Assembly (NCBI RefSeq): GCF_022352215.1
Contig: NZ_JAKRWF010000002.1
Span: forward strand, 620,001 to 684,000
From: Flavihumibacter cheonanensis
GTDB taxonomy: Bacteria > Bacteroidota > Bacteroidia > Chitinophagales > Chitinophagaceae
DNA: 64,000 bases
Reading direction: 5' to 3'
Shown piece by piece: positions 18,077 to 49,786 of the stretch. Each line of letters starts with the position of its first letter. The stretch's first letter is position 1. The notes under the pieces were generated by a model that saw only the letters and a list, made by a program, of their open reading frames with translations, was not told the DNA's origin and did no database searches. The position numbers were made by a program, and so were the translations under genes.

Positions 18077-19078
18077 TCAGAGGACCTGGAAGCCGTAGGC
18101 ATAAGGGTCGTCTTCGGGGTCAATGGTAATGGTATTGTATCCATACACTTTGGCCCATCCTTCAATACCTGGACGGATAGCCAGTTTACCGGCTATCGTT
18201 GTTTCCTCTTCGATCGTGCCTATGAAAGTGGATCCTATTATACTTTCATGAATAAACGGATCTCCTTTTTTCAATAAACCTTTGGTGTACCATTGCGCCA
18301 TTCTTGCAGAAGTGCCGGTGCCACAGGGACTGCGATCAATGGCTTTATCTCCATAGAAAACCGCATTTCTTGCTGTGGATGCGGGATTGAGCACAGCACC
18401 CGTCCAGAGAATATGAGAACAACCCCGGATGGTTGGATCATCCGGATGAACGAATTCATATTGCTGATTGATTCGTTTTCTCAATTCCCTTGCCCAGGCA
18501 ATGAGCTTATCGGCAGGATAGTGTTCAAGTCCGGCAAAATTCTTCTGCACATCCACGATTGCATAAAAATTACCTCCATAAGCAACATCGATCACTAGTT
18601 CTCCGAGTTCCGGACAATCTATCGTTAATTCAGTTGCCGCCAGGTAAGCAGCTACATTAGTGAGCTTTACAGATTTTACTTTATTGCCTTCCTGCCTGTA
18701 GCTGATTTCCACCAATCCGGCCGGTGCTTCCATTCTGATACTACCGGGAATCTTTGGTGTAATCAATCCTTCTTCAATTGCAATGGTAATGGTACCAATC
18801 GTGCCATGGCCACACATAGGCAAACAGCCACTGGTTTCTATAAAAAGTACTGCTACATCATTGGCAGCATCATGTGGCGCATATAAAATGGAGCCACTCA
18901 TCATATCATGCCCGCGAGGCTCAAACATCAGGCCTTTGCGGATCCAGTCAAACTTGTTCAGAAAATGCTGTCTCTTCTCACTCATGGTTCGGCCTTCCAG
19001 TGTTGGTCCACCACCAGCTACCAGTCGAACCGGATTTCCACAGGTATGCGCATCAATACAGAAAAAAGTTTTCTTCAT
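18077..19078 (-). CDS. 4-hydroxyproline 2-epimerase (proline racemase family)
   Basis: This 333-residue cofactor-independent enzyme interconverts trans-4-hydroxy-L-proline and cis-4-hydroxy-D-proline, the entry step of the pathway. Both catalytic cysteines are present: C89 in MCGHGTIG and C252 in SPCGTGTSA. A threonine at the second position would mark the hydroxyproline dehydratase branch, so the epimerase call is well supported. Proline racemase itself is less likely given the neighbouring hydroxyproline genes. It is divergent from the peptidase gene. Confidence 0.92.
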   Translation of the reverse strand: MKKTFFCIDAHTCGNPVRLVAGGGPTLEGRTMSEKRQHFLNKFDWIRKGLMFEPRGHDMMSGSILYAPHDAANDVAVLFIETSGCLPMCGHGTIGTITIAIEEGLITPKIPGSIRMEAPAGLVEISYRQEGNKVKSVKLTNVAAYLAATELTIDCPELGELVIDVAYGGNFYAIVDVQKNFAGLEHYPADKLIAWARELRKRINQQYEFVHPDDPTIRGCSHILWTGAVLNPASTARNAVFYGDKAIDRSPCGTGTSARMAQWYTKGLLKKGDPFIHESIIGSTFIGTIEEETTIAGKLAIRPGIEGWAKVYGYNTITIDPEDDPYAYGFQVL

Positions 19079-19231
19079 ATAGAATCCTGAATATCCGAAA
19101 TTACGGGTAGTTATTCTAGTGCAATCACCTGTATTTAGTGAAAACTTTACAGATTTTAGCCAATCCCTTTACTGGTTAAATTCTGAGAATGACAGGCTAA
19201 ACCAGGTTTATATCTTCCATTCGATTTCCAG

Positions 19232-19239
19232 TATGTTTG
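19232..19239 (+). promoter_or_regulatory. -7 promoter box of the DUF885 peptidase gene
   Basis: TATGTTTG is a perfect TAnnTTTG match 22 bases before the ATG. A TTTA at 19207-19210, 21 bases upstream, may serve as a poor -33 element. Confidence 0.5.
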
Positions 19240-19261
19240 ATGCAAACAGGCCGCTTTACTT

Positions 19262-21010
19262 ATGAGTACTTATTTATTCCGAATGATCTTTTGCAGTGGA
19301 ATACTGCTTGCAGTGTTAACAGGAGGCAGTGTAATTGCCCAGGTAGATACGAAGAAAGAAATTTCCAGCCAGGCATCGGAGCTGACCCATACCATACAGC
19401 AGTATAAAGCGGACAGAGGCAGTCTGAGCCGGTTTTATTTCCTGGAAACTTCACCGGAACGTATTAAGCGGATGAAAGAATTAACGCAGCAATACCAAAA
19501 CTTGCTGGATCGCTTTTCTTTCAACCAGCTCAGTATGGATGGCAAGGTTGACTATGTATTATTCAGCCGAAATCTGCAGAATGAATGGAACCTGTTGGAG
19601 ACCGGTGAAGCAGAACTGCCTATCGCAAAAGCCTATGTTCCTTTTTCTGATGATTTGTTTAGCTATGAAAGAAAAAGAAGAAGGGGTGCGGTATTGCCTG
19701 CAGCAACCCTGGCCGGCGAATGGCAGGGTTGGAAAAAACAGTTGGAAGAACGCATTTCTGCAATAGAAAAAGATCAGCAGTTAACGCTATCGATGGCTTA
19801 TGCAGTTCAGAAAAGGCTGGAAGATATTCAGGCAGCTGCAAAATCTATTTATGATTTTTATTATGGCTATGATCCTCAATTCAGCTGGTGGATGGAACAA
19901 CCCTATAAAGGAACCGACAGCCTGATCAAACGGTACAGCAGTGCTGTAATGGCTAAGGCAAGAAAAAATTCGGCGGCGGCAGATGATGGTAGCGGGATCC
20001 TGGGCCGACCGATAGGAGCTGCTGAACTGAAGCGACAGCTGGAACTGGAATTCATCCCTTATACAGCTGAAGAATTAATAAAGATAGCGGAGGAAGAATT
20101 TGCCTGGTGTGATAAGGAATTATTAAAGGCTACCAAAGAGATGGGCTTTGGAACCGACTGGAAAGCAGCTATGGAGAAAGTGAAGAACAGTTATGTACCG
20201 GAAGGAAGACAACCAGAGATGATTCTGGATCTGTTTAACCAGAGTGTAGAGTTTATCAAAAAGCATAAACTGGTAACCATACCACCTGTTGCAGAAGAGA
20301 CCTGGAGGATGAATATGATGTCGCCGGAAAGGCAATTAATCAATCCCTTTTTCCTGGGGGGAGAAAGTATTATCATTTCCTATCCCACGCATACCATGGC
20401 GCAGGCGGATAAGCTGATGAGCATGCGGGGTAATAATCCGCATTTTTCAAGAGCAACGGTGCATCATGAATTAATTGCAGGGCATCATTTGCAGCTATAC
20501 CAAAACCAGCGCTATAAAACTTATCGTAATTTTTATACACCTTTCTGGATTGAGGGATGGGCCCTGTATTGGGAGATGATCCTTTGGGATATGAATTTTC
20601 CTCGCGGGCCGGAAGATAAAATCGGGATGTTATTCTGGCGGATGCATCGTTGTGCGCGGATCATTTTCTCCCTGAACTATCACCTGGGTAAATGGACACC
20701 TCAGCAGTGCATCGATTTCCTGGTGGATCGGGTGGGTCATGAGAGGGCCAATGCGGAAGGGGAAGTGCGCAGGTCCTTCCAGGGCAATTATGGACCACTT
20801 TACCAGCTGGCTTACATGATTGGTGGCCTACAGTTTTACCAGTTGAAAAAGGAACTGGTGGATGGGGGAAAAATGAGTTATCTGCAGTTTCATGACCGGA
20901 TTCTGCAGGAACACCAGATGCCGGTGGAAATGATCCGCCAAATTTTAACCAACCAACCGCCGAAGAAAGCTTTTAAAACGGAATGGCGTTTTTATCCCAA
21001 ACTCAAATAA
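19262..21010 (+). CDS. Secreted DUF885 metallopeptidase-like protein
   Basis: This 582-residue protein has a signal peptide (about residues 1-28, ending VIAQ). The C-terminal half has the zinc-like motif HHELIAGHHLQ (HExxxGHH), 'FWIEGWALYWEMI' with a downstream glutamate, and 'HERANAEGEVRR', all typical of DUF885. The family is related to zinc carboxypeptidases/oligopeptidases. It sits between the hydroxyproline epimerase and the other hydroxyproline genes, so freeing hydroxyproline from peptides is a reasonable inference, not shown by sequence. Confidence 0.85.
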   Translation: MSTYLFRMIFCSGILLAVLTGGSVIAQVDTKKEISSQASELTHTIQQYKADRGSLSRFYFLETSPERIKRMKELTQQYQNLLDRFSFNQLSMDGKVDYVLFSRNLQNEWNLLETGEAELPIAKAYVPFSDDLFSYERKRRRGAVLPAATLAGEWQGWKKQLEERISAIEKDQQLTLSMAYAVQKRLEDIQAAAKSIYDFYYGYDPQFSWWMEQPYKGTDSLIKRYSSAVMAKARKNSAAADDGSGILGRPIGAAELKRQLELEFIPYTAEELIKIAEEEFAWCDKELLKATKEMGFGTDWKAAMEKVKNSYVPEGRQPEMILDLFNQSVEFIKKHKLVTIPPVAEETWRMNMMSPERQLINPFFLGGESIIISYPTHTMAQADKLMSMRGNNPHFSRATVHHELIAGHHLQLYQNQRYKTYRNFYTPFWIEGWALYWEMILWDMNFPRGPEDKIGMLFWRMHRCARIIFSLNYHLGKWTPQQCIDFLVDRVGHERANAEGEVRRSFQGNYGPLYQLAYMIGGLQFYQLKKELVDGGKMSYLQFHDRILQEHQMPVEMIRQILTNQPPKKAFKTEWRFYPKLK

Positions 21011-21114
21011 AAAGATGCCAGTTAAAATTGGTAAATTTTTAATTAAATGCCGGATAGCTGACTGCAAACACATATTCTAATTTCGAAACATCATAACAAG
21101 CAAAACTACATACT

Positions 21115-22059
21115 ATGGCAAGTATAAACTGGAACGGGGTGTACCCTGCTCTGCTTACGCCTTTCAATCAGCAGGAAGAAATTGATTTCGATCTATATAA
21201 AATCAACCTGGACGCTCAGGTGGAGGCAGGTGTGGATGGAGTTATTATCGGAGGATCGCTGGGTGAAACCAGCACGCTTTTAGGTGAAGAAAAAAGAGAC
21301 TTACTCATTTTTTCAAAAGAAGTGGCGCCTGCTCATGTTCCGGTACTGGTGAATATAGCAGAGCAAAGTACAAAAGTGGCAATAGCCCTGGCACAGGAGG
21401 CTGAACAGCATGGAGCAGATGGCTTAATGCTGTTGCCACCTATGCGTTACAAAGCAGATGATCGCGAGACAGTGGAGTTTTTTAAAGCGGTGGCACGAAA
21501 TACCTCCCTACCGATCCTTTTATATAATAATCCGGTTGATTATAAAATTGAGATCACGCTGGATATGTTTGAACAGTTACTTGATTTTGAAAACATCCAG
21601 GCTGTAAAAGAATCCACCCGCAACACGATGAATGTAACGAGAATGCTTAACCGATTTGGTGAGCGGTATAAAATCTTAACCGGCGTTGATCCGATTGCTC
21701 TGGAAAGCCTGCTGTTAGGTGCTCATGGTTGGGTAGCCGGACTCGTAGATGCATTCCCGCGTGAAACAGTTGCGATTTTCCGCCTGGTAAAAGCAGGTCG
21801 GTATGAGGAAGCGGTTGCCATTAACCGATGGTTCCTTCCCCTCTGTGAGCTGGATATTCATCCGAAACTGGTACAATATATTAAGCTTGCTGCAAAAGCA
21901 ACTGGTATCGGATCTGAATTTGTAAGAGCGCCCCGTTTATTGCTGGAAGGAGAGGAGTTGACACGTGTACAGAAAGTAATAGATGATGCTTTAGCCTGTC
22001 GCCCTGAATTACCAGATTATCTCAACCTGCAAACCGTATCCAATGCTCAGTGGGCTTAG
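21115..22059 (+). CDS. DHDPS-family enzyme, probable pyrroline-4-hydroxy-2-carboxylate deaminase
   Basis: This 314-residue class I aldolase of the dihydrodipicolinate synthase family has Schiff-base lysine K165 (IQAVKESTRN) and tyrosine Y137 (LLYNNPVDY), and the N-terminal 'GVYPALLTPF'. In hydroxyproline degradation this fold deaminates 1-pyrroline-4-hydroxy-2-carboxylate to 2-oxoglutarate semialdehyde. The specific assignment rests on the next two genes; the protein alone could be another DHDPS-like lyase. The following dehydrogenase gene overlaps it by 17 bases. Confidence 0.88.
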   Translation: MASINWNGVYPALLTPFNQQEEIDFDLYKINLDAQVEAGVDGVIIGGSLGETSTLLGEEKRDLLIFSKEVAPAHVPVLVNIAEQSTKVAIALAQEAEQHGADGLMLLPPMRYKADDRETVEFFKAVARNTSLPILLYNNPVDYKIEITLDMFEQLLDFENIQAVKESTRNTMNVTRMLNRFGERYKILTGVDPIALESLLLGAHGWVAGLVDAFPRETVAIFRLVKAGRYEEAVAINRWFLPLCELDIHPKLVQYIKLAAKATGIGSEFVRAPRLLLEGEELTRVQKVIDDALACRPELPDYLNLQTVSNAQWA

Positions 22060-23635
22060 TATTATTGGTCGGAACCGCGGAGCAGTAACTGCACATCAAT
22101 TACAGGCAAAAAGTCCGGTTACCGGTCAATCCTTACCAGAGGAATTTCATATAGCAAGTCCGGATGAAATTAACCGGGCATTGGAACTGGCGGCAAATGC
22201 TGCTCCTGAATTCAGTGCCATAAAAGCGGAACAACGGGCAGCATTTCTTGAAACCATTGGAGAAGAGATCATGGCTATCGGTCCGGCTTTGCTGGAGCGG
22301 GCGCATCTTGAAACCGGTTTACCGGAGGCAAGGCTGAGTGGAGAAAGAGACCGTACCGTTAATCAGTTAAAATTATTTGCTGCTGTATTACGCGAAGGAA
22401 GTTGGGTGGAAGCTGTTATTGATACTGCCTTACCGGATCGCAAACCTTTACCACGGACTGATCTCCGTAAGATGAAGGTGGCGATTGGGCCGGTAGCAGT
22501 TTTTGCTGCAAGCAATTTTCCCCTGGCATTTTCAACGGCCGGAGGTGATACAGCAGCTGCATTGGCAGCAGGTTGTCCGGTTATTGTAAAAGCACATGGA
22601 TCGCATTTAGGTACCAATGAACTGGTTGCTATTGCCATACAAAACGCAGCTATTAAATGTGCAATGCCGGAAGGTGTGTTTTCTTCCCTCAATGGTGAAG
22701 GCGCTGCACTGGGTCAGCAACTGGCAAAAGATGAACGCATCAAAGCAATCGGGTTTACCGGATCTTTTAAGGCAGGTATGGCCCTGTTTCATACAGCAAC
22801 CAAAGAGCGAAAAGAACCCATCCCTGTGTATGCTGAAATGAGCAGTATCAATCCGGTACTGTTATTACCTGCTCTTGTAAAAGCGGATCCGGAGGCAGTT
22901 GCAGCACAAATGGCAGCTTCTATTACACTGGGTGTTGGACAGTTTTGCACCAATCCGGGATTATTATTCATTTTGGAAGATGCAACTACAGACAAGCTCG
23001 TACATGCACTCACAGAAGCATTGAAAAAAGCTGCCGCCGGAGTAATGCTGAATCCTTCCATCTGCCGGAGTTATTATACGAACCGAACCCAGCTTAAAGG
23101 AATAGCCGGTGTGAAGGCATTACTGGAAGGGGAGGATGCATCTGACAGTTGCAAAGGAAGCGCTGCTTTGTATGAAGTAAGTGCTGCTGATTTTTTAAAA
23201 GAACCAGCTTTGCAGGAAGAGGTTTTCGGTCCTGCATCTCTGTTAGTAAGATGTAAATCAAAAGCAGATATGCTGCAGGCCCTTCAGCATATGCAGGGAC
23301 AATTAACCGGCTCTGTCTTTGGGCAATTAACGGAGCTGGATGATTTCAAAGATTGTATTACGATGCTGCAAAGTCGCGTGGGTCGTTTGATCTTTAACCA
23401 GGTACCAACCGGTGTGGAAGTTTGCCATGCGATGGTACATGGTGGTCCTTTTCCTGCAACCACTGATGCAAGTTCAACTTCCGTGGGAGCTTCTTCCATA
23501 GAACGTTTTTTGCGGCCGGTATGCTGGCAGAATTGTCCGGCTGATTTTCTTCCGGAGGCCTTACAAAACAACAATCCATTAGGGATCATGCGCAAGATCA
23601 ATGGTCAGTACACCAGGGATTCGATAACCAGTTAA
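22043..23635 (+). CDS. 2-oxoglutarate semialdehyde (2,5-dioxovalerate) dehydrogenase
   Basis: This 530-residue aldehyde dehydrogenase would oxidise 2-oxoglutarate semialdehyde to 2-oxoglutarate, the last step of hydroxyproline use. The catalytic cysteine is C302 (GVGQFCTNPG) and the general base E265 (YAEMSSINPV). The sequence 'FAASNFPLAFSTAGGDTAAALAAGCPVIVKAH' is typical of the KGSADH group. It starts inside the preceding gene and is followed three bases later by the oxidase, so translational coupling is likely. Confidence 0.92.
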   Translation: MLSGLSIIGRNRGAVTAHQLQAKSPVTGQSLPEEFHIASPDEINRALELAANAAPEFSAIKAEQRAAFLETIGEEIMAIGPALLERAHLETGLPEARLSGERDRTVNQLKLFAAVLREGSWVEAVIDTALPDRKPLPRTDLRKMKVAIGPVAVFAASNFPLAFSTAGGDTAAALAAGCPVIVKAHGSHLGTNELVAIAIQNAAIKCAMPEGVFSSLNGEGAALGQQLAKDERIKAIGFTGSFKAGMALFHTATKERKEPIPVYAEMSSINPVLLLPALVKADPEAVAAQMAASITLGVGQFCTNPGLLFILEDATTDKLVHALTEALKKAAAGVMLNPSICRSYYTNRTQLKGIAGVKALLEGEDASDSCKGSAALYEVSAADFLKEPALQEEVFGPASLLVRCKSKADMLQALQHMQGQLTGSVFGQLTELDDFKDCITMLQSRVGRLIFNQVPTGVEVCHAMVHGGPFPATTDASSTSVGASSIERFLRPVCWQNCPADFLPEALQNNNPLGIMRKINGQYTRDSITS

Positions 23636-23638
23636 AAA

Positions 23639-24877
23639 ATGAAAGCGCTAATAATAGGAGGAGGAATCATTGGTCTGAGCAGTGCGTATTATTTATCGGA
23701 AGCGGGTTGGGAAGTAGAAGTGCTGGAGGCTGGAGATTTTGCCGATAACTGTTCTTATGGTAACCTCGGCATGGTTGTGCCCAGTCATTTTGTACCATTG
23801 GCAGCACCCGGAATAGTAGCACAGGGAGTTCGCTGGATGTTCAATTCCAGCAGTCCGTTTTATATAAAACCTGGCTTGAATTCAAAACTGATTAACTGGG
23901 GCTTAAAATTTCTTCGCAGTGCAAATGCAAAGCAGGCGGAAGCAGCAGCCAGACCTTTGCTGGAACTAAACCTGTTCAGCAAATCACTATATGAAGAACT
24001 TGCAACGCACCTGAATTTCGGCCTGGAGAAAAAGGGCATCCTGATGTATTTCAAAACGGAGTCGGTTGCGGAGGAAGAAAATCATCTTGCTGAAAAGGCG
24101 AGAGCGATGGGGCTGGATGCCGTTTACCTGAGCAGGCAGGAAGTACTTCATCTCGAACCGGAGCAACAGCCGGATGTATTGGGGGCTGTGCATTATCGAT
24201 GTGATGCGCATTTGCATCCCAACTCTTTGATGCGTGAAATGATTACTATACTGAAGCAAAAAGGTGTCAGGTTATCAGCTGGTAAACCTCTTCAAAAAAT
24301 GGTGCGGGATCAGGATCAGATCAAAGAAATCATCGCAGGGGGTGATTCGATAAAAGCTGATCTGTTTGTAATGGCCAGTGGCTCCTGGTTACCTGAAACA
24401 ATGAAGCAGGCAGGCATATCCATTCCCCTGATGCCGGGCAAAGGATATTCATTTACAGGAAATGAAGGCGGACCTGCATTACGTATTCCAGCTATCCTAT
24501 GTGAAGCCAGGGTTGCAATTACGCCAATGGCAGGCCAACTGCGTTTTGGAGGAACCATGGAACTGGCCGGCTTCCAGCATAAGGTAAGTATGAACCGCGT
24601 TAGAGGTATTGTGGAATCAGTACCCAGGTATTTTCCGGCGATGAAGCTGGAAATGCCCCGGGAAAAGGAAGTATGGTATGGATTCAGACCCTGTTCTCCG
24701 GATGGGCTGCCTTTTATCGGGTATGCAAAAAATGTAAGGAACCTGTTGGTAGCAGGAGGGCATGCCATGATGGGACTCAGTTTAGGTCCCGCCACCGGTA
24801 AGCTCATTGCTGAATTAGCACAATCCCAAAGCACTTCCGTTGATATCAGTGCGTTTGACCCGAATCGTTTTTCCTGA
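23639..24877 (+). CDS. FAD-dependent D-amino acid oxidoreductase, probable D-hydroxyproline dehydrogenase
   Basis: This 412-residue DadA-like flavoprotein has a Rossmann motif at the N-terminus (IIGGGIIGLSSAYYL) and a C-terminal FAD contact (GHAMMGLSLGPATGKLI). It should oxidise cis-4-hydroxy-D-proline, the epimerase product, to 1-pyrroline-4-hydroxy-2-carboxylate, passing electrons to the respiratory chain. D-alanine or other D-amino acids are alternative substrates; the operon context decides. Its last 32 bases overlap the convergent permease gene. Confidence 0.88.
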   Translation: MKALIIGGGIIGLSSAYYLSEAGWEVEVLEAGDFADNCSYGNLGMVVPSHFVPLAAPGIVAQGVRWMFNSSSPFYIKPGLNSKLINWGLKFLRSANAKQAEAAARPLLELNLFSKSLYEELATHLNFGLEKKGILMYFKTESVAEEENHLAEKARAMGLDAVYLSRQEVLHLEPEQQPDVLGAVHYRCDAHLHPNSLMREMITILKQKGVRLSAGKPLQKMVRDQDQIKEIIAGGDSIKADLFVMASGSWLPETMKQAGISIPLMPGKGYSFTGNEGGPALRIPAILCEARVAITPMAGQLRFGGTMELAGFQHKVSMNRVRGIVESVPRYFPAMKLEMPREKEVWYGFRPCSPDGLPFIGYAKNVRNLLVAGGHAMMGLSLGPATGKLIAELAQSQSTSVDISAFDPNRFS

Positions 24878-26255
24878 TCGCATAATAGATAGGAATTCCC
24901 AGCAGGGTGATGATCAATCCCGGCCAGGTATAATTCGGTTTAAAAAAGATCAGCAGTACACAGAAACTCAATCCCATCAGTATATAAAGAATTGGTAAAA
25001 CCGGATAACCAAAGGCTTTGTAAGGCCTTGGCTGATCCGGTCTTTTTTTACGGAGGATAAATATGCCAGCAATGGTCAGCATATAAAAGCCAACAACTAC
25101 AAAGGATATCATGTCCAGCAACTGACCATATTGCCCGCTTACGCTCCAGGCACATGCAAATAGACACTGAAACCAAAGCGCATAACCGGGCACGTTGTTG
25201 CCATTCAGCGTACCTGCTTTTTTGAAAAAAAGTCTGTCTTTGGCCATGGTATGATATACTCTTGCTCCCGCAAGGATCAGTCCGTTATTGCATCCGAACG
25301 TGCTGATCATTATCATGACTGCTATAATAATAGTTCCTGCAGGACCAAAAATTACCTGTGCAGCAGCAACACCGACCCTGTCTTTTTCAGTACCGGCGAT
25401 ACCATCAAGCGGAAGCACAGCCAGGTATACCAGGTTGGTACACACATAGATGATAGTAACCAGTAGCGTTCCGAAAAATAAACTCAGACCGATATTACGT
25501 TGTGGATTTTTAATTTCACCTGCAATAAACGTGACATTGTTCCAGGAGTCGCTGCTGAAAATTGAGCCAACCATGGCTGCAGCAATGGCACCTAACACAG
25601 CGATCCCTGAATATAGTTCAGTACCCTCACCCGGAGTGAATTTGCCAAGGAGCCAGGGCAATTCCCAGTTCTGTTTCCACACCTCAGGTTGAAAGGCGAA
25701 TAAACCAAACAGGATCAATCCGAGCAAGCTGAGAATCTTAGTTAGGGTAAACGTGGTTTGAATCAGTTTTCCACTTTGAATACCGCGGGTGTTTATAAAA
25801 GTCAGCAGTATGATAATTACAATTGATAGCAACTGTGCTGCTGAAAAATGGAAACTGCCTATGGATAACAGGATGGAATCTTCTCCAACAGCCGGAAAAA
25901 TATAAGCGGTAAATTTTGCAAAGGCTACAGCTACTGCTGCAATCGTAGCTGTTTGGATGACGGAGAAAAAACTCCAGCCATATAAGAATCCGATAAGTGG
26001 ATTATAGGCTTCTTTCAGGTAAACATACTGACCACCTGCTTTCGGAAACATAGCACTTAACTCTCCATAACTGAGCGCTGCAGTAATGGTCATAAAGCCG
26101 GTGATCAACCAGATGGCGATCAGCCAGCCGGCACTTCCCACATTGCGGGTGATGTCTGCACTGACGATAAAGATTCCGGAACCAATCATTGAGCCGGCAA
26201 CAATCATAGTTGCATCCAGTAATCTAAGGGTAGGCTTAAAGTTCGAATCCTGCAT
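24846..26255 (-). CDS. APC-family amino acid permease
   Basis: This 469-residue inner-membrane transporter has about 12 helices, with the APC signature 'ATMIVAGSMIGSGIFIVSADI' at residues 14-34. Its closest recognisable relatives are LAT-like antiporters and amino acid permeases of Bacteroidota. Convergent with the hydroxyproline operon and overlapping its end, it is the obvious candidate to import hydroxyproline or short-chain imino acids. The substrate is inferred from context only. Confidence 0.88.
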   Translation of the reverse strand: MQDSNFKPTLRLLDATMIVAGSMIGSGIFIVSADITRNVGSAGWLIAIWLITGFMTITAALSYGELSAMFPKAGGQYVYLKEAYNPLIGFLYGWSFFSVIQTATIAAVAVAFAKFTAYIFPAVGEDSILLSIGSFHFSAAQLLSIVIIILLTFINTRGIQSGKLIQTTFTLTKILSLLGLILFGLFAFQPEVWKQNWELPWLLGKFTPGEGTELYSGIAVLGAIAAAMVGSIFSSDSWNNVTFIAGEIKNPQRNIGLSLFFGTLLVTIIYVCTNLVYLAVLPLDGIAGTEKDRVGVAAAQVIFGPAGTIIIAVMIMISTFGCNNGLILAGARVYHTMAKDRLFFKKAGTLNGNNVPGYALWFQCLFACAWSVSGQYGQLLDMISFVVVGFYMLTIAGIFILRKKRPDQPRPYKAFGYPVLPILYILMGLSFCVLLIFFKPNYTWPGLIITLLGIPIYYAIRKNDSGQTH

Positions 26256-26433
26256 ACAGTTCGTTTAGATAAAGGGAAATTAAGGAATTCGTTTTCTAGA
26301 AAGCCAGTAGGGCTAATATCTGGTAACAATTAAATAAAATGTGTGAATCCATAGCTGTTTTCTCGTTCTACATTTAAGTGTAAAAATTACAATTAACCGA
26401 TTGCTTTCTGTCACAACCAAAAATTGTCAAGCT

Positions 26434-29421
26434 ATGAGAATTTCATTTGGGAGGATCAGCACGCTGCTTTTCTTTCTACTACTGACTGTATTTCTTGTTG
26501 GTGCGGGGTTAGAACTCCGTGCCCAGGAAAGATCACCCAACCAGGTAAATGGAAAAATTACCAATGAGGAGGGTGTTCCGTTGCCGGGTGTTTCCGTAAC
26601 GGAAATTGGTACACAGAATGGAACCACTACAGATGAAAAAGGAGAGTTTGTTTTAACACTTACCCGGGCCAACTCAAAGATCCGGATCAGTTCTGTAGGA
26701 TTTGCGAGCCAGGATATTGATGCTGCCGGTCGTTCCACTTTTACTATACAAATGAGTGCAGCTCAATCCAGCCTGGATGATGTGGTAGTAGTGGGTTATG
26801 GCAAGCAGAAAAAGGGTGAAGTAACAGGTGCGGTGGCGAATGTAAAAAGAGAAGATTTCACTCAGGGCTTTGCGCGGGATGCGGGCCAATTGATCCAGGG
26901 TAAGGTAGCCGGACTCGCAATTGTTAGTCCCAGTGGTAACCCCAATGCCACCACGCAGATATCATTAAGAGGTAACAGTACGATATTATCTTCCACTGAA
27001 CCGCTGATACTGATTGATGGTATCCCAGGCTCATTGAATACGATTGCACCGGAAGACATTGAATCCATTGATGTATTGAAAGACGGATCTGCTGCTGCGA
27101 TTTATGGAACCAGGGGTACCAATGGAGTAATCCTGATCACTACGCGCAAGAGAAGCGGGAAAATGCCTGCTACACTGAGTTACGACAGTTATGTTAGTGT
27201 GCAGACGATTGCCCGGCGCATGGAATTCCTGGAAGCAGGTGATGTTCGGAAACTGGTGAATGATGGATTTTATCCTGCGTCTTATGATAAAGGAACCAGC
27301 ACCGACTGGTTAAAGGAAATCAGTCGCAATCCTGTAAGCCATGTACATAATGTATCGCTGCAGGGTGGCACTGCCCAATCCAATTATATTGCAACGCTGA
27401 ACCTCCGTAACTGGGAAGGGTTGTTCAATCGTTCGGATAACAAACAGTTTACAGGTCGTATTGACCTGAATCATTCCATGCTGGATAACCGCTTGCGCTT
27501 TAACGTTAGTTTGTTAGGCAGAAACCGGAAGTATTTCTCTGGCCCCAATTACGATTATATCTATCGTCAGGCAATCATTCGCAATCCAACCGACAGTGTA
27601 TATGATTATTTAGGTCGCTGGAAAGAAGATCCCAACGCCTATAACTATGACAACCCGGTTCGCAGCATTGAAGAAACATCTGGTGAATTCCGAACCTCAG
27701 AACTTCGTTTGAACGGTAGTGTGATCTTCTCTCCTATAAAGGATCTGAATATCAAGCTGCTGGTATCCAATGTGAAGATCAATTCACTCTCGGGTTATTC
27801 CGAGACCTTTAATCACCGCGCATCTGTGGTGAATAACAGAACTGGTTATGCATCGCGTACTACCAACCTCTTCCAGGACAACCTGCTGGAACTTACTACT
27901 GATTATACCAAATCCTTTGGTCAGCATCGGGTAACAGTGCTGGGTGGATATAGCTGGCAGGATGTAACCAATGAAGGATTTAACGCGGCCAACTCCAATT
28001 TCCCAACAGATCTCTATACCTATAATAACCTCGCCGCCGGTGATGCCCTTCTGTTACAGAATAACAGCGCATTTGGATTGGGATCCTTTAAAACCAATCA
28101 CAAACTGATCGGCTTCTTTGGTCGTGTGAATTATTCACTCAGTGAAAAATATCTGCTCATGGCCAGTATGCGTTATGAAGGATCTTCCAAGTTTGGAGCC
28201 AACTACAAGTGGGGTACATTCCCGGCAGTTTCAGTTGGATGGCGCCTTAACAAGGAATCATTCCTGGCCAATGCTGATTTCCTGGATGACCTGAAACTCA
28301 GGGCAGGATTTGGTGTAACTGGTACTGTTCCGACAGATCCTTATCAGTCGCTCATTTCACTAACATATAGCAATAACCGCTACCTGTACAATGGTCAGTG
28401 GATCCAGCCAATTTCTCCCACCAGGAACCCCAACCCAGATTTACGCTGGGAAAAAAAGGAGGAATACAATATCGGATTGGATTATGCAATGTTCCGCGGT
28501 CGCCTGAGTGGTAGTATTGATTTTTACCAGCGTAATACCAAGGATATGTTGTACAACTTCCCGGTTCCGGTTCCACCCAACTTGTTTGGTACCACCCTGG
28601 CAAATGCAGGCAGCATGTTAAACCGTGGTGTGGAAGTATTGGTGAATTATGATTTTATCCGCAAGAAGGATATGGATTTCAGAGCCAATCTTACCTATTC
28701 GGCCAATAAGAATAAACTGATCTCCATTTCAAATGATTTGTATCAGACTACCAATGATTTCTTTTTTGCAGGGTATACCGGTGAACCCATCCAGGAAGCA
28801 ACACACCGTGTGAAAGTGGGTGAATCCATTGGAAATTTCTGGGGTTACAAAACCATTGATGTGGATGAAGATGGTAAATGGATCATTGAAGGGGAGGATG
28901 GCAAACCCAAGCCAATCGGACAGTCTACCCCTTCAGATAAAAAAGTGCTGGGTAATGGTATTCCAAAACATGTTGCGGGACTCAATCTCTATTTCCGATA
29001 CAAAAGAGCAGATATCGCTGTAAACATGCGTGGTGCATTTGGTTACCAGATTCTGAATTTCCAGCGCATGTATTATGAGAACCCCAAGATCAAGCAGTAC
29101 AATATGCTTAAATCAGCATTGGACCCGGTTTATGGAAAAAGAATGCTGGATAATGACCTGGCTTATGTATCCCACTACATAGAGGATGGTGACCACTGGA
29201 AAGTGGATAACGTAACGCTTGGATACAGCTTTAATGTAACAAACAGCAAGTATTTCCGTACCGCACGGGTATATGCATCAGCGCTTAATCTGATTGTGCT
29301 GACCGGTTACAAGGGAATCGACCCAGAAGTAAACCGGTTGGGGTTGGATCCGGGCGTGGATTCAAGAGATAAGTATCCTACTACCAGAACCTTCACTGTG
29401 GGAGTAAACATTGGTTTTTAA
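26434..29421 (+). CDS. SusC/RagA-type TonB-linked outer-membrane transporter (first locus)
   Basis: This 995-residue outer-membrane receptor imports oligosaccharides or glycopeptides with energy from TonB. It has a signal peptide to about residue 34 (LRAQE), a carboxypeptidase-D-like regulatory domain at 40-120 (NGKITNEEGVPLPGVSV), a plug at 125-240 with the SusC signature 'VLKDGSAAAIYGTRGTNGVILITT', and then a barrel to the C-terminus ('TFTVGVNIGF'). ATG 26434 is chosen over an upstream TTG because it starts a normal signal peptide. SusD follows in the same operon. Confidence 0.96.
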   Translation: MRISFGRISTLLFFLLLTVFLVGAGLELRAQERSPNQVNGKITNEEGVPLPGVSVTEIGTQNGTTTDEKGEFVLTLTRANSKIRISSVGFASQDIDAAGRSTFTIQMSAAQSSLDDVVVVGYGKQKKGEVTGAVANVKREDFTQGFARDAGQLIQGKVAGLAIVSPSGNPNATTQISLRGNSTILSSTEPLILIDGIPGSLNTIAPEDIESIDVLKDGSAAAIYGTRGTNGVILITTRKRSGKMPATLSYDSYVSVQTIARRMEFLEAGDVRKLVNDGFYPASYDKGTSTDWLKEISRNPVSHVHNVSLQGGTAQSNYIATLNLRNWEGLFNRSDNKQFTGRIDLNHSMLDNRLRFNVSLLGRNRKYFSGPNYDYIYRQAIIRNPTDSVYDYLGRWKEDPNAYNYDNPVRSIEETSGEFRTSELRLNGSVIFSPIKDLNIKLLVSNVKINSLSGYSETFNHRASVVNNRTGYASRTTNLFQDNLLELTTDYTKSFGQHRVTVLGGYSWQDVTNEGFNAANSNFPTDLYTYNNLAAGDALLLQNNSAFGLGSFKTNHKLIGFFGRVNYSLSEKYLLMASMRYEGSSKFGANYKWGTFPAVSVGWRLNKESFLANADFLDDLKLRAGFGVTGTVPTDPYQSLISLTYSNNRYLYNGQWIQPISPTRNPNPDLRWEKKEEYNIGLDYAMFRGRLSGSIDFYQRNTKDMLYNFPVPVPPNLFGTTLANAGSMLNRGVEVLVNYDFIRKKDMDFRANLTYSANKNKLISISNDLYQTTNDFFFAGYTGEPIQEATHRVKVGESIGNFWGYKTIDVDEDGKWIIEGEDGKPKPIGQSTPSDKKVLGNGIPKHVAGLNLYFRYKRADIAVNMRGAFGYQILNFQRMYYENPKIKQYNMLKSALDPVYGKRMLDNDLAYVSHYIEDGDHWKVDNVTLGYSFNVTNSKYFRTARVYASALNLIVLTGYKGIDPEVNRLGLDPGVDSRDKYPTTRTFTVGVNIGF

Positions 29422-29438
29422 TGTTAAAAAGAGTAATC

Positions 29439-31034
29439 ATGAAACAACATAAAATTTTAAGTATCTCAGTATTGATGGCAGGCGGAATCCTGCTGAATAC
29501 AGGATGTACCAAACTGGATGAGGAAGTATACGACCAGGTATTGGAAACTTCTTTTCGCCCGTCTGAAAAGGATATACCGGCAATTATCGGTCCGGCTTAT
29601 ACCATCATGCGTCCCATGTATGCGGGCTGGCAGGGAAATTTTGATCTGCAGGAAGAACCGGCTGATGTAATTGTAACACCGGCGCGTCCGAATGGATGGT
29701 ATGATGGTGGTACTTACCAGCGGATGCACAACCACGAGTGGAACCAGGTGCAATGGCAACCGCAGAACTTATGGAATAACTGTTACAATGGGATCAATAC
29801 AGTGAACCGGATTTTGTTCCAGATTGAGTCTGGCTCTATTCCAATTGCCAATGGAAAAGATGCCCTGATTTCTGAATTGAAAGCGCTGAGAGCATTTTAT
29901 TATTCACTCTTGGTGGATACGCATGGCAATGTTCCATTGGTAACGGATTTCTCGGATGCTACCTTGCCGCAACAGGCAACACGGCAGCAGGTATATGAAT
30001 TTGTAGAGAAGGAATTACTGGAGAATATGAATAACCTGAGTGTAGTTGCGGATAAGTCAATGTATGGACGCATTAATAAATGGGTAGCTAAAGCAATACT
30101 GGCACGCCTTTACCTGAATGCGGAAGTATATACTGGAACGGCGCAGTGGCAGAAATGTATGGAACAGTGCAATGATATCATCAATGCAAACATTTATATC
30201 CTGGAGCCGAATTACAAGAACAATTTTGTAACGGCGAATGAAAATTCAAAAGAATTGATTCTGGCAGTTCCTTATGATGAAGTATTTGCAACTCAGAATT
30301 CCATTCATATGAAAACCCTGGCAACAGCACATCGCAATGTGCTGAACATGGCAGCGCAGCCCTGGGGTGGCAACTGTGCAGTACCTCAATTCATTGATAC
30401 CTATGACCCGGATGATTCAAGAATGAAGGATACCTGGATCATGGGACCTCAATACAGTGTAACAACCGGTGAAGAGATCCTGAATTATACCCGCCATGTC
30501 GATGGCATAGCGCTAGCAGGATTTTTCCAGGGTTACCGCATCGGTAAATATGAAATCAAAGTTGGTGCACGTGGTGGTTTAAGCACAGATTTTCCGGTAT
30601 TCCGATATGCGGATATCCTCATGATGAAAGCCGAGTCGTTGCTCAGAACAGGAAATGCTGCAGATGCAGCAACCCTGGTAACACAGGTTAGACAGCGTGC
30701 ATTTGCAACAACCAATCCGGCTAAGGCTGCCGTAACAGCTGATGAGCTTACCAAAGGAAGTGTTTACAATTATGGTTACTGGAAAGATGGCGCCGTTACA
30801 GAAGTGCAGGGTGGTTCAGATATTCCCTTTGGTCGCTTTTATGATGAACTGGGTTGGGAGTTTGCAGCTGAAGCACACCGCCGGCAGGATATGATCCGGT
30901 TTGGTGTATTCCATCGCAAAACCTGGTTCAATCACCGGCCCAAAAATGATGGCAAGATGAGAACCCTGTTCCCGATTCCGGAAGCGGAATTGAATAAGAA
31001 TCCCAATCTGGCGCAAAACCCTGATTACAGATGA
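29439..31034 (+). CDS. SusD/RagB-type surface lipoprotein (first locus)
   Basis: This 531-residue lid protein sits on the SusC barrel and binds the ligand outside the cell. The lipobox is LLNTGC, with the cysteine at about residue 23. SusD-type regions include 'ELKALRAFYYSLLVDTHGNVPLV', 'RINKWVAKAILARLYLNAEVY' and the C-terminal 'FPIPEAELNKNPNLAQNPDY'. Another in-frame ATG at 29421 overlaps the SusC stop; the later start gives the more usual lipoprotein signal. Confidence 0.95.
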   Translation: MKQHKILSISVLMAGGILLNTGCTKLDEEVYDQVLETSFRPSEKDIPAIIGPAYTIMRPMYAGWQGNFDLQEEPADVIVTPARPNGWYDGGTYQRMHNHEWNQVQWQPQNLWNNCYNGINTVNRILFQIESGSIPIANGKDALISELKALRAFYYSLLVDTHGNVPLVTDFSDATLPQQATRQQVYEFVEKELLENMNNLSVVADKSMYGRINKWVAKAILARLYLNAEVYTGTAQWQKCMEQCNDIINANIYILEPNYKNNFVTANENSKELILAVPYDEVFATQNSIHMKTLATAHRNVLNMAAQPWGGNCAVPQFIDTYDPDDSRMKDTWIMGPQYSVTTGEEILNYTRHVDGIALAGFFQGYRIGKYEIKVGARGGLSTDFPVFRYADILMMKAESLLRTGNAADAATLVTQVRQRAFATTNPAKAAVTADELTKGSVYNYGYWKDGAVTEVQGGSDIPFGRFYDELGWEFAAEAHRRQDMIRFGVFHRKTWFNHRPKNDGKMRTLFPIPEAELNKNPNLAQNPDYR

Positions 31035-31063
31035 TTACATTTATATGTTAAACTGAAAAAAGC

Positions 31064-33472
31064 ATGAGAAATTTCTGTTTATCGATTTTACTCGCCACTG
31101 GTTTGATAACACAGACCGGAATTGCACAGGACGCTCAACACGATTATCCGATACAACCGGTGCCATTTACAAAAGTGCATTTTCATGATGCTTTCTGGGC
31201 ACCTAAAATTGAAGTGAATGCAAAAGTTAGCATTCCCTATACTCTTCAGAAATGCCGGGAAACCGGACGCATTGATAATTTCCTGAAAGCTGCGGGAAAA
31301 ATGCCTGTGGGGAAAATCACAGAGTATCCATTTGACGATACAGATGTCTACAAGCTGATTGAAGGAGCTTCTTATTCGCTGCAGACCAAACCTGATCCGG
31401 AGCTTGAAAAAACACTGGATACCCTTATCAGTATCATTGCTGACGCACAGGAACCGGATGGCTATCTCTATACTTTCCGCACCATGAAACCAGATACCCT
31501 GCATCCATGGATCAGTCCGAAGCGTTGGGAAAAGGATCCTGATCTGAGCCATGAATTATACAATAGCGGACACCTGTTTGAAGCTGCGGTTGCCCATTAC
31601 CTGGCAACTGGGAAGCGCAATTTTCTGGACATCGCATTAAAAAATGCAGATCTCTTATTGCGTGATTTCGGTCCGGGTAAAGCAGCCTATTTTCCTGGTC
31701 ACCAGGTGGTAGAAATGGGACTGGCGCGCCTGTATCGCGTCACTGGCAAAAAAGAGTACCTCGACCTGGCCAAGTTTTTCCTCGATATCCGGGGCAATGG
31801 CAATATCAAGGGATCAGAATATAGTCAGTCGCACAAGATGGTCACCGACCAGCACGAAGCAGTTGGGCATGCAGTTCGTGCAGCCTATATGTACACCGGT
31901 ATGGCGGATGTTGCTGCACTCACCGGAAACAAAGAGTATATTAACGCCATCCAGGATATCTGGAAAGACGTGATGGAACACAAGCTGTACCTCACCGGCG
32001 GTATTGGTGCAACCGGTCATGGTGAAGCATTTGGCGCTGCATACCAGTTACCCAATATGTCGGCCTATGCAGAAACCTGTGCCTCCATTGCCAATGTGTA
32101 CTGGAACAGTCGCATGTTTTTAATGAACGGGGATGCGCAGTATGTGGATGTACTGGAGCGCATTTTATACAATGGCTTGTTATCAGGAGTATCCTTGAGC
32201 GGCGACCGGTTTTTCTATCCCAATCCACTGGCATCAATGGGGCAGCACCAGCGAAGTGCCTGGTTTGGTTGTGCCTGTTGTATCAGCAATATGACCCGCT
32301 TTATGCCTTCAGTTCCCGGATATGTATATGCGAAAAAAGAGAATGATCTCTATGTGAATTTATACGTGGCCAGCACTTCGGATATAGAGCTGCCTGCGGG
32401 CAAACTACAACTGGAGCAGGTGACAGAATATCCCTGGAAAGGGCAGGTTGGTTTACTGATAAAGCAGGCACCCTCCAAATCCTTTACCGTACGGTTGCGT
32501 ATTCCCGGTTGGGCAAGGCAGGAAGCAGTTCCTGGAAGTTTGTATGCCTTCCTGGATACTCAAAGAAAGCCCATTCGAATCCTCCTGAATGGGAAGGCTA
32601 TTGAATATAAGATGGAGAAAGGCTATGCTGTAATCAATCGCAGCTGGAAAAAAGGAGATAAGCTGGAACTGGAGCTGCCCCTGGAAATTGAAAAAGTGAT
32701 CGCCAACCAGCAGGTAAAGGATAATATCAATCGTTTTGCTCTGCAGCGAGGACCAATCGTATATTGTATTGAAGGCCCCGACAATAAAGACAATGCGGTG
32801 AATAATATTGTGGTGGATCGTTCTGCCGGTATTCAGGCCAACTATGAGCCGGACTTGTTAAATGGTGTAATGGTGCTGACTGCAAAAGGAAGCAGTACAA
32901 AAAGACAGGTGAATACAAGTACTCTCCTGCGTTCGGAGCAAACCGTAAAGGCTATTCCTTACTATTCCTGGAATAATCGTGGTGCGGGAGAAATGCAGGT
33001 TTGGATTCCCTATGCAGAATCAGCAGCTATGCCAATGCCGGCGCCAACCATTGCATCCAAAAGTACCGTGAGTTCATCACAGAAAAATCCCCGTATGCTG
33101 AAAGGGATGAACGATCAGTATGAACCATCCAGTTCACAGGATCGCAATTCCATATATCTGCATTGGTGGCCGAAAGAAAATACCACAGAGTGGGTGCAAT
33201 ATGATTTTGATCAGCCGCAAACCGTACAGTCCAGTAAATTCTACTGGTTTGATGATGGACCATTTGGAGGATGCAGGATTCCTGCCGGCTACCAGCTGCT
33301 CTATGAAAAAGAGGGCAACTGGGTACCAGTGGAAGTGGAGCAGCAGGATGCGATCACAAAGGATGCGTATAACAGCATCCGGTTTAAACCAGTTAAGACC
33401 AAAGGGCTTCGCCTGGAGGTTAAATTACCCGAGAAACATTCTGCCGGTATTCATGAATGGATCGTGAACTGA
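31064..33472 (+). CDS. Beta-L-arabinofuranosidase family protein, GH127, with C-terminal discoidin-like domain
   Basis: This 802-residue enzyme has a signal peptide ending near residue 22 (GIAQD). The GH127 zinc-cysteine site is complete: E337 and C339 (AETCAS), C405 and C406 in CACC, with C405 at the position of the catalytic cysteine of Bifidobacterium HypBA1. E321 (HGEAFG) matches its acid/base. HypBA1 releases L-arabinose from beta-arabinooligosaccharides linked to hydroxyproline in extensin. About 130 extra C-terminal residues (from 'QPQTVQSSKFYWFDDG') look like a discoidin-type carbohydrate-binding domain. Downstream of SusCD. Confidence 0.92.
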   Translation: MRNFCLSILLATGLITQTGIAQDAQHDYPIQPVPFTKVHFHDAFWAPKIEVNAKVSIPYTLQKCRETGRIDNFLKAAGKMPVGKITEYPFDDTDVYKLIEGASYSLQTKPDPELEKTLDTLISIIADAQEPDGYLYTFRTMKPDTLHPWISPKRWEKDPDLSHELYNSGHLFEAAVAHYLATGKRNFLDIALKNADLLLRDFGPGKAAYFPGHQVVEMGLARLYRVTGKKEYLDLAKFFLDIRGNGNIKGSEYSQSHKMVTDQHEAVGHAVRAAYMYTGMADVAALTGNKEYINAIQDIWKDVMEHKLYLTGGIGATGHGEAFGAAYQLPNMSAYAETCASIANVYWNSRMFLMNGDAQYVDVLERILYNGLLSGVSLSGDRFFYPNPLASMGQHQRSAWFGCACCISNMTRFMPSVPGYVYAKKENDLYVNLYVASTSDIELPAGKLQLEQVTEYPWKGQVGLLIKQAPSKSFTVRLRIPGWARQEAVPGSLYAFLDTQRKPIRILLNGKAIEYKMEKGYAVINRSWKKGDKLELELPLEIEKVIANQQVKDNINRFALQRGPIVYCIEGPDNKDNAVNNIVVDRSAGIQANYEPDLLNGVMVLTAKGSSTKRQVNTSTLLRSEQTVKAIPYYSWNNRGAGEMQVWIPYAESAAMPMPAPTIASKSTVSSSQKNPRMLKGMNDQYEPSSSQDRNSIYLHWWPKENTTEWVQYDFDQPQTVQSSKFYWFDDGPFGGCRIPAGYQLLYEKEGNWVPVEVEQQDAITKDAYNSIRFKPVKTKGLRLEVKLPEKHSAGIHEWIVN

Positions 33473-33473
33473 T

Positions 33474-34358
33474 TTAGCTCGCAACATCATAGGCATGCAA
33501 CGTATAGGATTCCACATATTCGCTGGGTGATTTGCCCAATACAGCTTTGAACACGCGATTGAAATTGGTAATGCTGTTGAATCCGCAGGTATAAGCAACT
33601 GTTGAAATACTGTCGAACCCGCCTTCCGTGAGTTTTTTACAAGCCTCATTGATCCGCACTTCATTGAGGAATGAAACAAAGGTATGGCGGGTTCTTTTTT
33701 TGAAAAACCGGCAGAAAGCCTGTGGCGTCATATGTGCCTGTTTCGCCACATCGTCCAGGGTTATCTGCTCTGCATAATTGCTTAGGATAAAATTGTAGAT
33801 CCTGCCAAGTCGCAGTCCCTCATTTTCACTGAACTGGGCCATTTCAGAAACACTTCCCAATTCCTTCAATTGGGAAGATGCACAACAGGCTCGCAGCAAT
33901 TCCAGAAAACTGATGATCTGATCAATGCCGGATTGCTGCTCCATTTTTAACATCAGACTGCTGATTTCATCCGTCATCTCCTCTTGCAGCATAAAACCGG
34001 AACGATATTTCTGAAGAAACTGACGAATCAGTTTGGTCTCCATTAGGTCAAAGAGGAAATGCAGCTTGCCGGATGGATTAAAGAAAATGGTAAGGGCTTC
34101 CACTTCCAGGTTCCCTCCGTAATAAACAGGATCGTTTTTAAATACATGGGGCTGGTTGGCACCTATGCAAAAGATTTCATTCGCCCGAAATGGATACATA
34201 TTGTTTTCCACTACCAGGGTTCCTTCACCCTTAATAATCCATGTCAGTTGAACTTCATCGTGCCGGTGTAAATGTTGGTACATAAAGGGGAGCCTGTCTC
34301 GTTGAACAATGATGTTCTTCTCGCCCGGAACCGGAATGGTGAATTGCAGGACTTTCAT
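33474..34358 (-). CDS. AraC-family regulator of the GH127 locus
   Basis: This 294-residue regulator has an N-terminal cupin-like sensor ('HLHRHDEVQLTWIIKGEGTLVV', 'IGANQPHVF') and a C-terminal double helix-turn-helix ('ITLDDVAKQAHMTPQAFCRFFKKRTRHTFVSFLNEVRI', 'STVAYTCGFNSITNFNRVFKAVLGKSPSEY'). Such proteins typically activate sugar genes when bound to a mono- or disaccharide. Its stop lies one base beyond the stop of the GH127 gene, so it converges on the locus it probably controls. Confidence 0.92.
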   Translation of the reverse strand: MKVLQFTIPVPGEKNIIVQRDRLPFMYQHLHRHDEVQLTWIIKGEGTLVVENNMYPFRANEIFCIGANQPHVFKNDPVYYGGNLEVEALTIFFNPSGKLHFLFDLMETKLIRQFLQKYRSGFMLQEEMTDEISSLMLKMEQQSGIDQIISFLELLRACCASSQLKELGSVSEMAQFSENEGLRLGRIYNFILSNYAEQITLDDVAKQAHMTPQAFCRFFKKRTRHTFVSFLNEVRINEACKKLTEGGFDSISTVAYTCGFNSITNFNRVFKAVLGKSPSEYVESYTLHAYDVAS

Positions 34359-34478
34359 GTTCAGTTAATTAAGTGTAGGAATGACAGTAATTTACTGTAT
34401 TCCATTAAATTATCCTGCAATAGTGAAAATATGATGATAAGCGGTTAAAATACGGGCAAACCAAAATCAGCTTTGGGG

Positions 34479-49756: not shown

Positions 49757-49786
49757 TTCAATATTTTTAATCTGTATGAAGAATAA

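Follow-up and report, generated by a model that had tools for sequence, protein, structure and literature searches.

The locus at positions 18077-34358 of the 64-kb window probably serves in the use of arabinosylated, hydroxyproline-rich glycoproteins from plants and would belong in part to the arabinose regulon. The window is the whole stretch of DNA that was analysed (G000:C164:620001-684000). The plant wall contains hydroxyproline-rich glycoproteins, extensins among them. Our reading is built on observed genes, protein families, active-site residues, synteny, operator-like sites and an AraR orthologue.

Gene content of the locus

The features of the locus are as follows (in gene orders below, EPI is the epimerase, ALDH the aldehyde dehydrogenase and PERM the permease).

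18077..19078, minus strand, 4-hydroxyproline 2-epimerase (NF010578, 584 bits against a cut-off of 376; PF05544; C89 and C252)
19134..19156, no strand, degenerate AraR-like site in the epimerase/DUF885 divergent promoter (matrix score 7.25)
19262..21010, plus strand, DUF885 putative metallopeptidase, probably exported (PF05960, 168 bits)
21115..22059, plus strand, DHDPS-family protein, predicted pyrroline-4-hydroxy-2-carboxylate deaminase (PF00701; function from operon context with the epimerase)
22043..23635, plus strand, aldehyde dehydrogenase, predicted 2-oxoglutarate semialdehyde dehydrogenase (PF00171)
23639..24877, plus strand, FAD D-amino-acid oxidase (DAO) family, predicted cis-4-hydroxy-D-proline oxidase (PF01266, 214 bits)
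24846..26255, minus strand, amino-acid permease, predicted hydroxyproline or peptide importer (PF13520, 201 bits)
26374..26396, no strand, predicted AraR operator in the permease/SusC divergent promoter, top-scoring site of the 64-kb window
26401..29421, plus strand, SusC outer-membrane transporter (TIGR04056, 684 bits against a cut-off of 368)
29421..31034, plus strand, SusD surface lipoprotein (PF07980, PF14322; lipobox-like Cys near the N-terminus, by eye)
31064..33472, plus strand, GH127 beta-L-arabinofuranosidase with F5/8 type C domain, probably exported, by eye (PF07944, 364 bits)
33474..34358, minus strand, AraC-family regulator (PF12833)
34369..34391, no strand, predicted AraR operator 5' of the AraC gene, ranked third in the window by both matrices

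All genes and families named in the initial annotation were recovered at these coordinates from the ORF list, Pfam and NCBIfam. Its claim of a full hydroxyproline pathway stood at the level of families: the four enzyme families of trans-4-hydroxyproline degradation are found together in the window and the epimerase has both catalytic cysteines (C89 in MCGHG and C252 in SPCGTG), but the oxidase, deaminase and dehydrogenase all score under their NCBIfam cut-offs. Among the ten locus proteins scanned with NCBIfam, the epimerase alone passed an equivalog cut-off, while SusC passed a subfamily cut-off. The top match of the aldehyde dehydrogenase was 2,5-dioxovalerate dehydrogenase (98 bits, cut-off 750) and that of the oxidase the D-amino acid dehydrogenase subfamily (247 bits, cut-off 383); the DHDPS-family protein and the permease reached 171 (cut-off 206) and 210 (cut-off 702). 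The functions of these four proteins therefore rest on family and gene context.

The DUF885 protein contains HHELIAGHH at residue 401 and a hydrophobic N-terminal stretch (judged by eye, without a signal-peptide program), and its PDB relatives are 3o0y, 3u24 and 3iuk. No characterised DUF885 peptidase appeared among the titles of the matches listed in our literature search. For this protein, as for SusD and GH127, export is itself an inference, although a probable one. The adjoining SusC and SusD genes together with a glycoside hydrolase (TIGR04056, PF07980, PF07944) meet the criteria for a SusCD polysaccharide utilisation locus. The SusC start is more likely the ATG at 26434 than the TTG at 26401. 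SusC matches at 56 and 54% occur in the G027 and G031 loci, and the permease is also found in the locus of sister species and in G671, G360 and G534.

Specificity of the GH127 enzyme

Three GH127 domains score above cut-off (PF07944, 364 bits; PF20736, 82 bits; PF20737, 87 bits). All nine of the zinc, catalytic and substrate positions of HypBA1 that were compared are kept in the window enzyme, as H163, Y166, H213, R272, E321, E337, C339, C405 and C406. Of the HypBA1 reference positions, R273, H194, H142 and Y145 were taken from PMC10850190; the others are the Glu/Cys/Cys/Cys zinc site and the acid/base Glu. That the enzyme would cleave beta-L-Araf from Ara or Hyp is inferred from these conserved residues. 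The closest solved GH127 is 6ex6 (747 bits), which we take to be BT3674, and not 3wkw (320 bits), presumably HypBA1, the enzyme named in the initial annotation.

In a tree of 72 sequences (FastTree, midpoint root, support values not considered), the epimerase-linked enzymes fall into three GH127 clades and a GH146 part, and the presence of several GH127 clades at epimerase loci suggests, so far as such a tree can tell, repeated recruitment. The clade of the window enzyme is sister to 6ex6.

This placement bears on which glycoprotein would be used. The evidence does not favour extensin over arabinogalactan proteins, and a version of our explanation, included within it and in our view possible though the less likely one, takes arabinogalactan proteins as the target; GH127 would then trim terminal beta-L-Araf from their side chains, and hydroxyproline would come from their backbone. 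The sister position to 6ex6 speaks for this version, since BT3674 is reported, in the available part of PMC10850190, to work with galactanases on larch arabinogalactan. So does an AraR-type site in the window before a GH27 gene whose nearest solved relative is a beta-L-arabinopyranosidase. Against this, no galactanase-type family was found among 30 Pfam-scanned window proteins (not every ORF was scanned), and the GH51 and GH146 enzymes added in relatives fit Hyp-Ara4. Hyp-linked arabinose is the described target of a GH146 enzyme (PMC10850190, as far as available). By Pfam scan and homology search, no GH146 for Hyp-linked arabinose was found at the window locus, and GH146 adjoins the epimerase in five sister genomes (G001, G007, G011, G012 and G013). 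The structure 5opj we take to be the GH146 enzyme BT0349. GH51 fits the terminal alpha-Araf of Hyp-Ara4, and action of GH27 on Ser-linked galactose is no more than a guess.

The sole other match to the GH127 query in the genome is a remote PF07944 protein of 1000 aa (G000:C110:902927-905929; L219:4928-7930), which carries laminin-G-like and bacterial Ig-like domains.

Linkage of the hydroxyproline and arabinosidase genes

We weighed whether the two halves are chance neighbours, that is, a general hydroxyproline operon (for collagen or free Hyp) beside an unrelated GH127 locus for arabinan or rhamnogalacturonan. The oppositely oriented permease does separate the SusCD-GH127 block from the hydroxyproline genes in the window, and the PERM-SusCD-GH127-AraC block could be merely a neighbouring locus. 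We nevertheless regard chance adjacency as improbable, as the linkage recurs with varying gene order and involves more than one GH127 clade.

A gene-neighbourhood survey, which the initial annotation had called for, was carried out on 99 relatives searched both with the epimerase and with GH127, an epimerase match being 60% identity or more. A GH127-family match was present in all 33 genomes with the epimerase, compared to 10 of the 66 without. When the comparison was restricted to members of the family outside our genus, with one genome per genus, the corresponding figures were 19/19 and 8/26 (P 1.1e-6). Linkage of the two genes in the family is far above chance: of 21 genera, 12 have a GH127-family gene less than 10 kb from the epimerase (0.32 expected, P 2.5e-17) and 13 have one less than 35 kb away (1.1 expected, P 1.7e-12). 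Our own genus entered this test as one row at 12 kb, and distances and gene counts were entered by hand. Taking one genome per genus lessens shared descent and does not remove it. No GH127-family linkage within 35 kb was seen in 8 of the 20 other genera (G028, G020, G022, G032, G034, G058, G089 and G048); in G032 just 584 bp separate the epimerase from a contig end, and in G048 the epimerase is split.

Named loci were examined as the best 80 of at least 590 epimerase matches, with flanks of 10 kb or less and some contigs short. A GH127-family gene is present in 26 of these 80 loci, and 19 of the 79 that were mapped hold the epimerase and GH127/146 in one same-strand run (gaps <300 bp). Seven Mucilaginibacter-type loci read GH127-GH27-DHDPS-ALDH-EPI, with DAO within the run or nearby, while a Ferruginibacter MAG (L053) has ALDH-EPI-DAO-DUF885-S9 peptidase-GH146-GH127 and L057 has EPI-GFO-GH127-GH146-DAO. 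Enzymes added at the loci of relatives, by Pfam and PDB matches, are GH146, GH51, GH27, S9, M24 and M1; GH51 domains occur in L045 and L058, and L061 (Ilyomonas limi) has a GH51 match. In G031 one strand carries the hydroxyproline genes together with GH146, GH127 and matches to the window SusC/SusD (54 and 57%). Within the genus, G012 and G013 share the order ARAC-GH127-GFO-PERM-DAO-ALDH-DHDPS-DUF885-SusD2-SusC2-EPI-GH146, the order differs in other sisters, and SusC-SusD lies between PERM and GH127 in the window, G004, G008 and G014. Because the two gene sets stay together in many arrangements among relatives, the pairing looks real.

Several other features of these neighbourhoods were noted. 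An S9 peptidase match lies between the permease and SusC in G004 and G014 and is absent in the window (26256-26400) and G008, and so seems to have been gained or lost within the genus. The GH127 of G004 is 98% identical to that of the window. Among the same best 80 of at least 590 matches, BshC (bacillithiol synthesis) is found near the epimerase in 18 loci (e.g. L059, L063 and L075) and an antisense fatty-acid-hydroxylase-like gene in 25. A DUF5695 protein (L103:2-2752, 1318 bits) lies near a hydroxyproline operon, its cluster spanning four loci including Pedobacter.

Across the Bacteroidota, the epimerase (E up to 1e-90) was found in 77 of 395 genomes, 68 of them outside the family. GH127/146 is present in 8 of these 68 loci (5/7 in family f23 and 3/21 in family f25), and in one f25 genome, G671, the order DHDPS-ALDH-EPI-S9-DUF885-DAO-PERM-GH127 runs on one strand. 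In the remaining 60, searched over about 9.5 kb each side with some cut by contig ends, no GH127/146 was within reach, and none was found in families beyond f23 and f25; this absence favours the view of chance neighbours. The order DHDPS-ALDH-EPI-DAO is common across the phylum. With GH127/146 in so few loci outside the family, we take the hydroxyproline operon to be general and the arabinosidase to be an add-on. The named loci and the phylum loci overlap partly (L100/L205, L066/L199).

Predicted AraR operators

Comparison of the intergenic regions of the locus yielded a common inverted repeat. This pattern has just one further exact match in the genome, 5' of araB, within a row of two GH51 genes, a mutarotase, HAD, araB, an araD-type aldolase, araA, a symporter and araR. 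The AraR orthologue (L221:5846-6535) has PF21906 and PF19368 above cut-off, and its best PDB match is BtAraR (5bs6, E 1.2e-73). BtAraR operators have a GTGT-N7-ACAC core, as does the motif found here, and L-arabinose releases BtAraR from DNA (PMC4666351, in the part available). The AraC protein was rejected as the binder of the repeat, since the motif is found 5' of araB as well and agrees with AraR operators already published. The NrtR winged-helix domain is present in three proteins of the genome, so that the binder of the predicted operators is not settled.

In seven of nine genomes checked (G000, G002, G008, G011, G012, G013 and G014) the site is followed by an araB-like ORF. The identical 23 bases of the araB site occur in G004, where the neighbouring genes are not known, and no such site at araB was found in G003. 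Genome-wide matches of the motif include sites without an evident arabinose link, some of them inside genes.

Two matrices were used for scoring, one from the araB sites and published operators and one from the three published BtAraR operators alone. The araB training sites had themselves been identified by means of a pattern derived from this locus, and the published-only matrix served as a repeat test. With the araB+published matrix, 26374 ranks first in the window, 34369 third and 19134 thirteenth; when only the published operators are used, 26374 again comes first, 54397 and 34369 take second and third place, and 19134 is seventeenth. AraR-type operators are thus predicted from sequence at the SusC and AraC promoters. 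The degenerate state of the epimerase-side site in the window is a point for chance adjacency of the two halves.

In the sister genomes, by the araB+published matrix, sites scoring at least 12 precede SusC or GH127 in 11 of 11 and AraC in 5 of 11. In G009 one SusC-side site adjoins an S9 gene, and GH127 has its own site. Sites of 12.2-16.5 lie in the divergent promoter of the epimerase in six of the 11 (G002, G003, G009, G011, G012 and G013), so that operator-like sites occur on both sides in six sister genomes, which argues against chance adjacency. Five of these six epimerase-side sites face a divergent second SusC, which may be the target. Over the 12 genomes, then, the epimerase-side site is good in six, weak in the window, G004 and G008, and not convincing in G001, G007 and G014.

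In 20 loci of the 11 sisters, 25 hits fall in locus-gene promoters, which make up 3.6% of the bases, compared to 2 hits elsewhere; permuted controls gave a mean of 0.49 and a maximum of 4, and none of 100 reached 25. Three further loci (L032, L033 and L034) come from genomes counted already (G008, G013 and G007), and with them the count is 27 vs 2 in 23 Flavihumibacter loci. Leave-half-out P values were weak, because true sites are counted among the positions elsewhere. In 97 other loci the excess is modest at threshold 12 (12 vs 4.14, with 1 of 100 controls reaching 12) and at threshold 14 stands at 9 vs 1.28 (no control of 100 reaching 9). An earlier matrix derived from the locus gave, outside the genus, 12 promoter hits and 19 elsewhere (control mean 1.15, maximum 6 of 60). 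In Ilyomonas limi (L061), sites lie between AraC and DHDPS and before GH127. Outside the family no enrichment of AraR-type sites was found, with 3 promoter hits vs a control mean of 3.29 at threshold 12 and 1 vs 0.75 at threshold 14.

Other sequences were observed during the site search. The second-best AraR-type site of the window (54397) is just 5' of an ORF without a Pfam family (54430-55527) and a GH27 gene (55539-56975), the nearest solved relative of the latter being the beta-L-arabinopyranosidase Abp (4nx0, 420 bits). The opposite strand holds a SusCD pair at 48077-52819. An AraR-type site in G011 (G011:C23:475854-475876; L233:5855) is just 5' of a second GH127-family gene, 28% identical to the window GH127 and about 55 kb from the epimerase. 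An AT-rich element between the DUF885 and DHDPS genes (21011-21114) recurs in several sister species; it was rejected as an AraR site, the best AraR score in the gap being 1.75.

The AraC-family regulator

In our own genome the AraC gene sits at the GH127 end of the locus. Of 99 genomes, 26 hold a match to it (E up to 1e-50), and the best match lies less than 35 kb from the epimerase in 19 of the 24 genomes having both genes (own included). These 19 comprise 10 of 11 genomes within the genus (own included) and 9 of 13 outside it; the best match was not within 35 kb of the epimerase in G007, G026, G042, G043 and G058. That the AraC gene matches a regulator at the hydroxyproline locus elsewhere is a further point against chance adjacency. 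The link between the halves, which had been an inference in the initial annotation, is in this way supported by repeated linkage, the matching AraC gene and AraR-type operators; the refuting outcome named there, that neighbourhoods in relatives never join the two, did not occur.

Proposed model

For arabinosylated hydroxyproline-rich glycoproteins, the inferred substrate, we propose that SusC/SusD would import arabinosylated Hyp peptides, from which the putatively exported GH127 would strip beta-L-arabinofuranose. DUF885 and other peptidases, in a role that is likewise inferred, would trim the bared peptide, and the permease would bring in hydroxyproline, with transport inferred too. The epimerase, D-Hyp oxidase, deaminase and dehydrogenase would convert hydroxyproline to 2-oxoglutarate, and the freed L-arabinose would be consumed via the separate ara operon. 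AraR, relieved by arabinose, is predicted to control also SusCD-GH127 and the AraC gene; binding and induction are inferred. Arabinose may thus be the signal for the sugar half and, through AraC, for the amino-acid half, the AraC signal being an inference as well.

A wider reading, for which we hold the chances to be nearly balanced and which is offered tentatively, is that this is a recurrently assembled system for hydroxyproline-rich glycoproteins in Bacteroidota and, in Flavihumibacter and some other Chitinophagaceae, a single AraR-gated sugar/protein regulon. AraR would then gate SusCD-GH127 and, directly or via AraC, hydroxyproline catabolism, and freed arabinose would tell the cell that hydroxyproline is coming.

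The remaining possibility for GH127, the role of an aceric acid hydrolase acting on rhamnogalacturonan II, has behind it NF049879 as the best and only NCBIfam match and was rejected as very improbable, since the 486 bits fall under the 950-bit cut-off and the H142 of HypBA1 is kept as H163 in the window enzyme, the residue being Phe in 5mqo, presumably BT1003.

If our explanation is true, the removal of arabinose would be coupled to the consumption of hydroxyproline, placing amino-acid and glycan catabolism in one regulon, with an arabinose-responsive repressor that reaches both halves. The locus would also allow glycoprotein degraders to be recognised from their genomes, and it would supply a set of enzymes (GH51, GH127, GH146, GH27 and proline peptidases) for ordered testing.

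Comparison with known systems

The bacterial trans-4-hydroxyproline catabolic operon consists of epimerase, oxidase, deaminase and dehydrogenase, and the same four enzyme families are found in the window. The window differs from that operon in that its epimerase gene stands apart and is transcribed divergently, and in that an arabinosidase, SusCD and DUF885 are added.

A combined arabinosidase/hydroxyproline locus was not found described in the open full-text literature (titles, starts of abstracts and matches listed), in keeping with the claim of the initial annotation that none was known. This is weak evidence, as subscription papers lie mostly outside such a search. In the available parts of PMC4454575, PMC10850190, PMC4666351 and PMC7263609, removal of extensin-type sugar is described and use of the backbone is not.

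The AraR regulon described for Bacteroides and Prevotella (PMC4666351, available part) is alike in its NrtR-family AraR, its operator core and its control of ara genes and SusCD/GH loci; a word search of that paper did not find hydroxyproline. The prediction for Latescibacteria (PMC4454575) is alike in that GH127 is proposed for extensin, but the portion available gives no gene cluster and no linked hydroxyproline catabolism. The HypAA-HypBA2-HypBA1 cluster of Bifidobacterium longum, as given in the accessible part of PMC7263609, resembles the window in a GH127 acting on beta-L-Araf from hydroxyproline-rich glycoproteins and in a dedicated import system. That cluster takes up sugar by an ABC transporter, whereas the window holds SusCD, a putative peptidase and the full predicted hydroxyproline pathway together.
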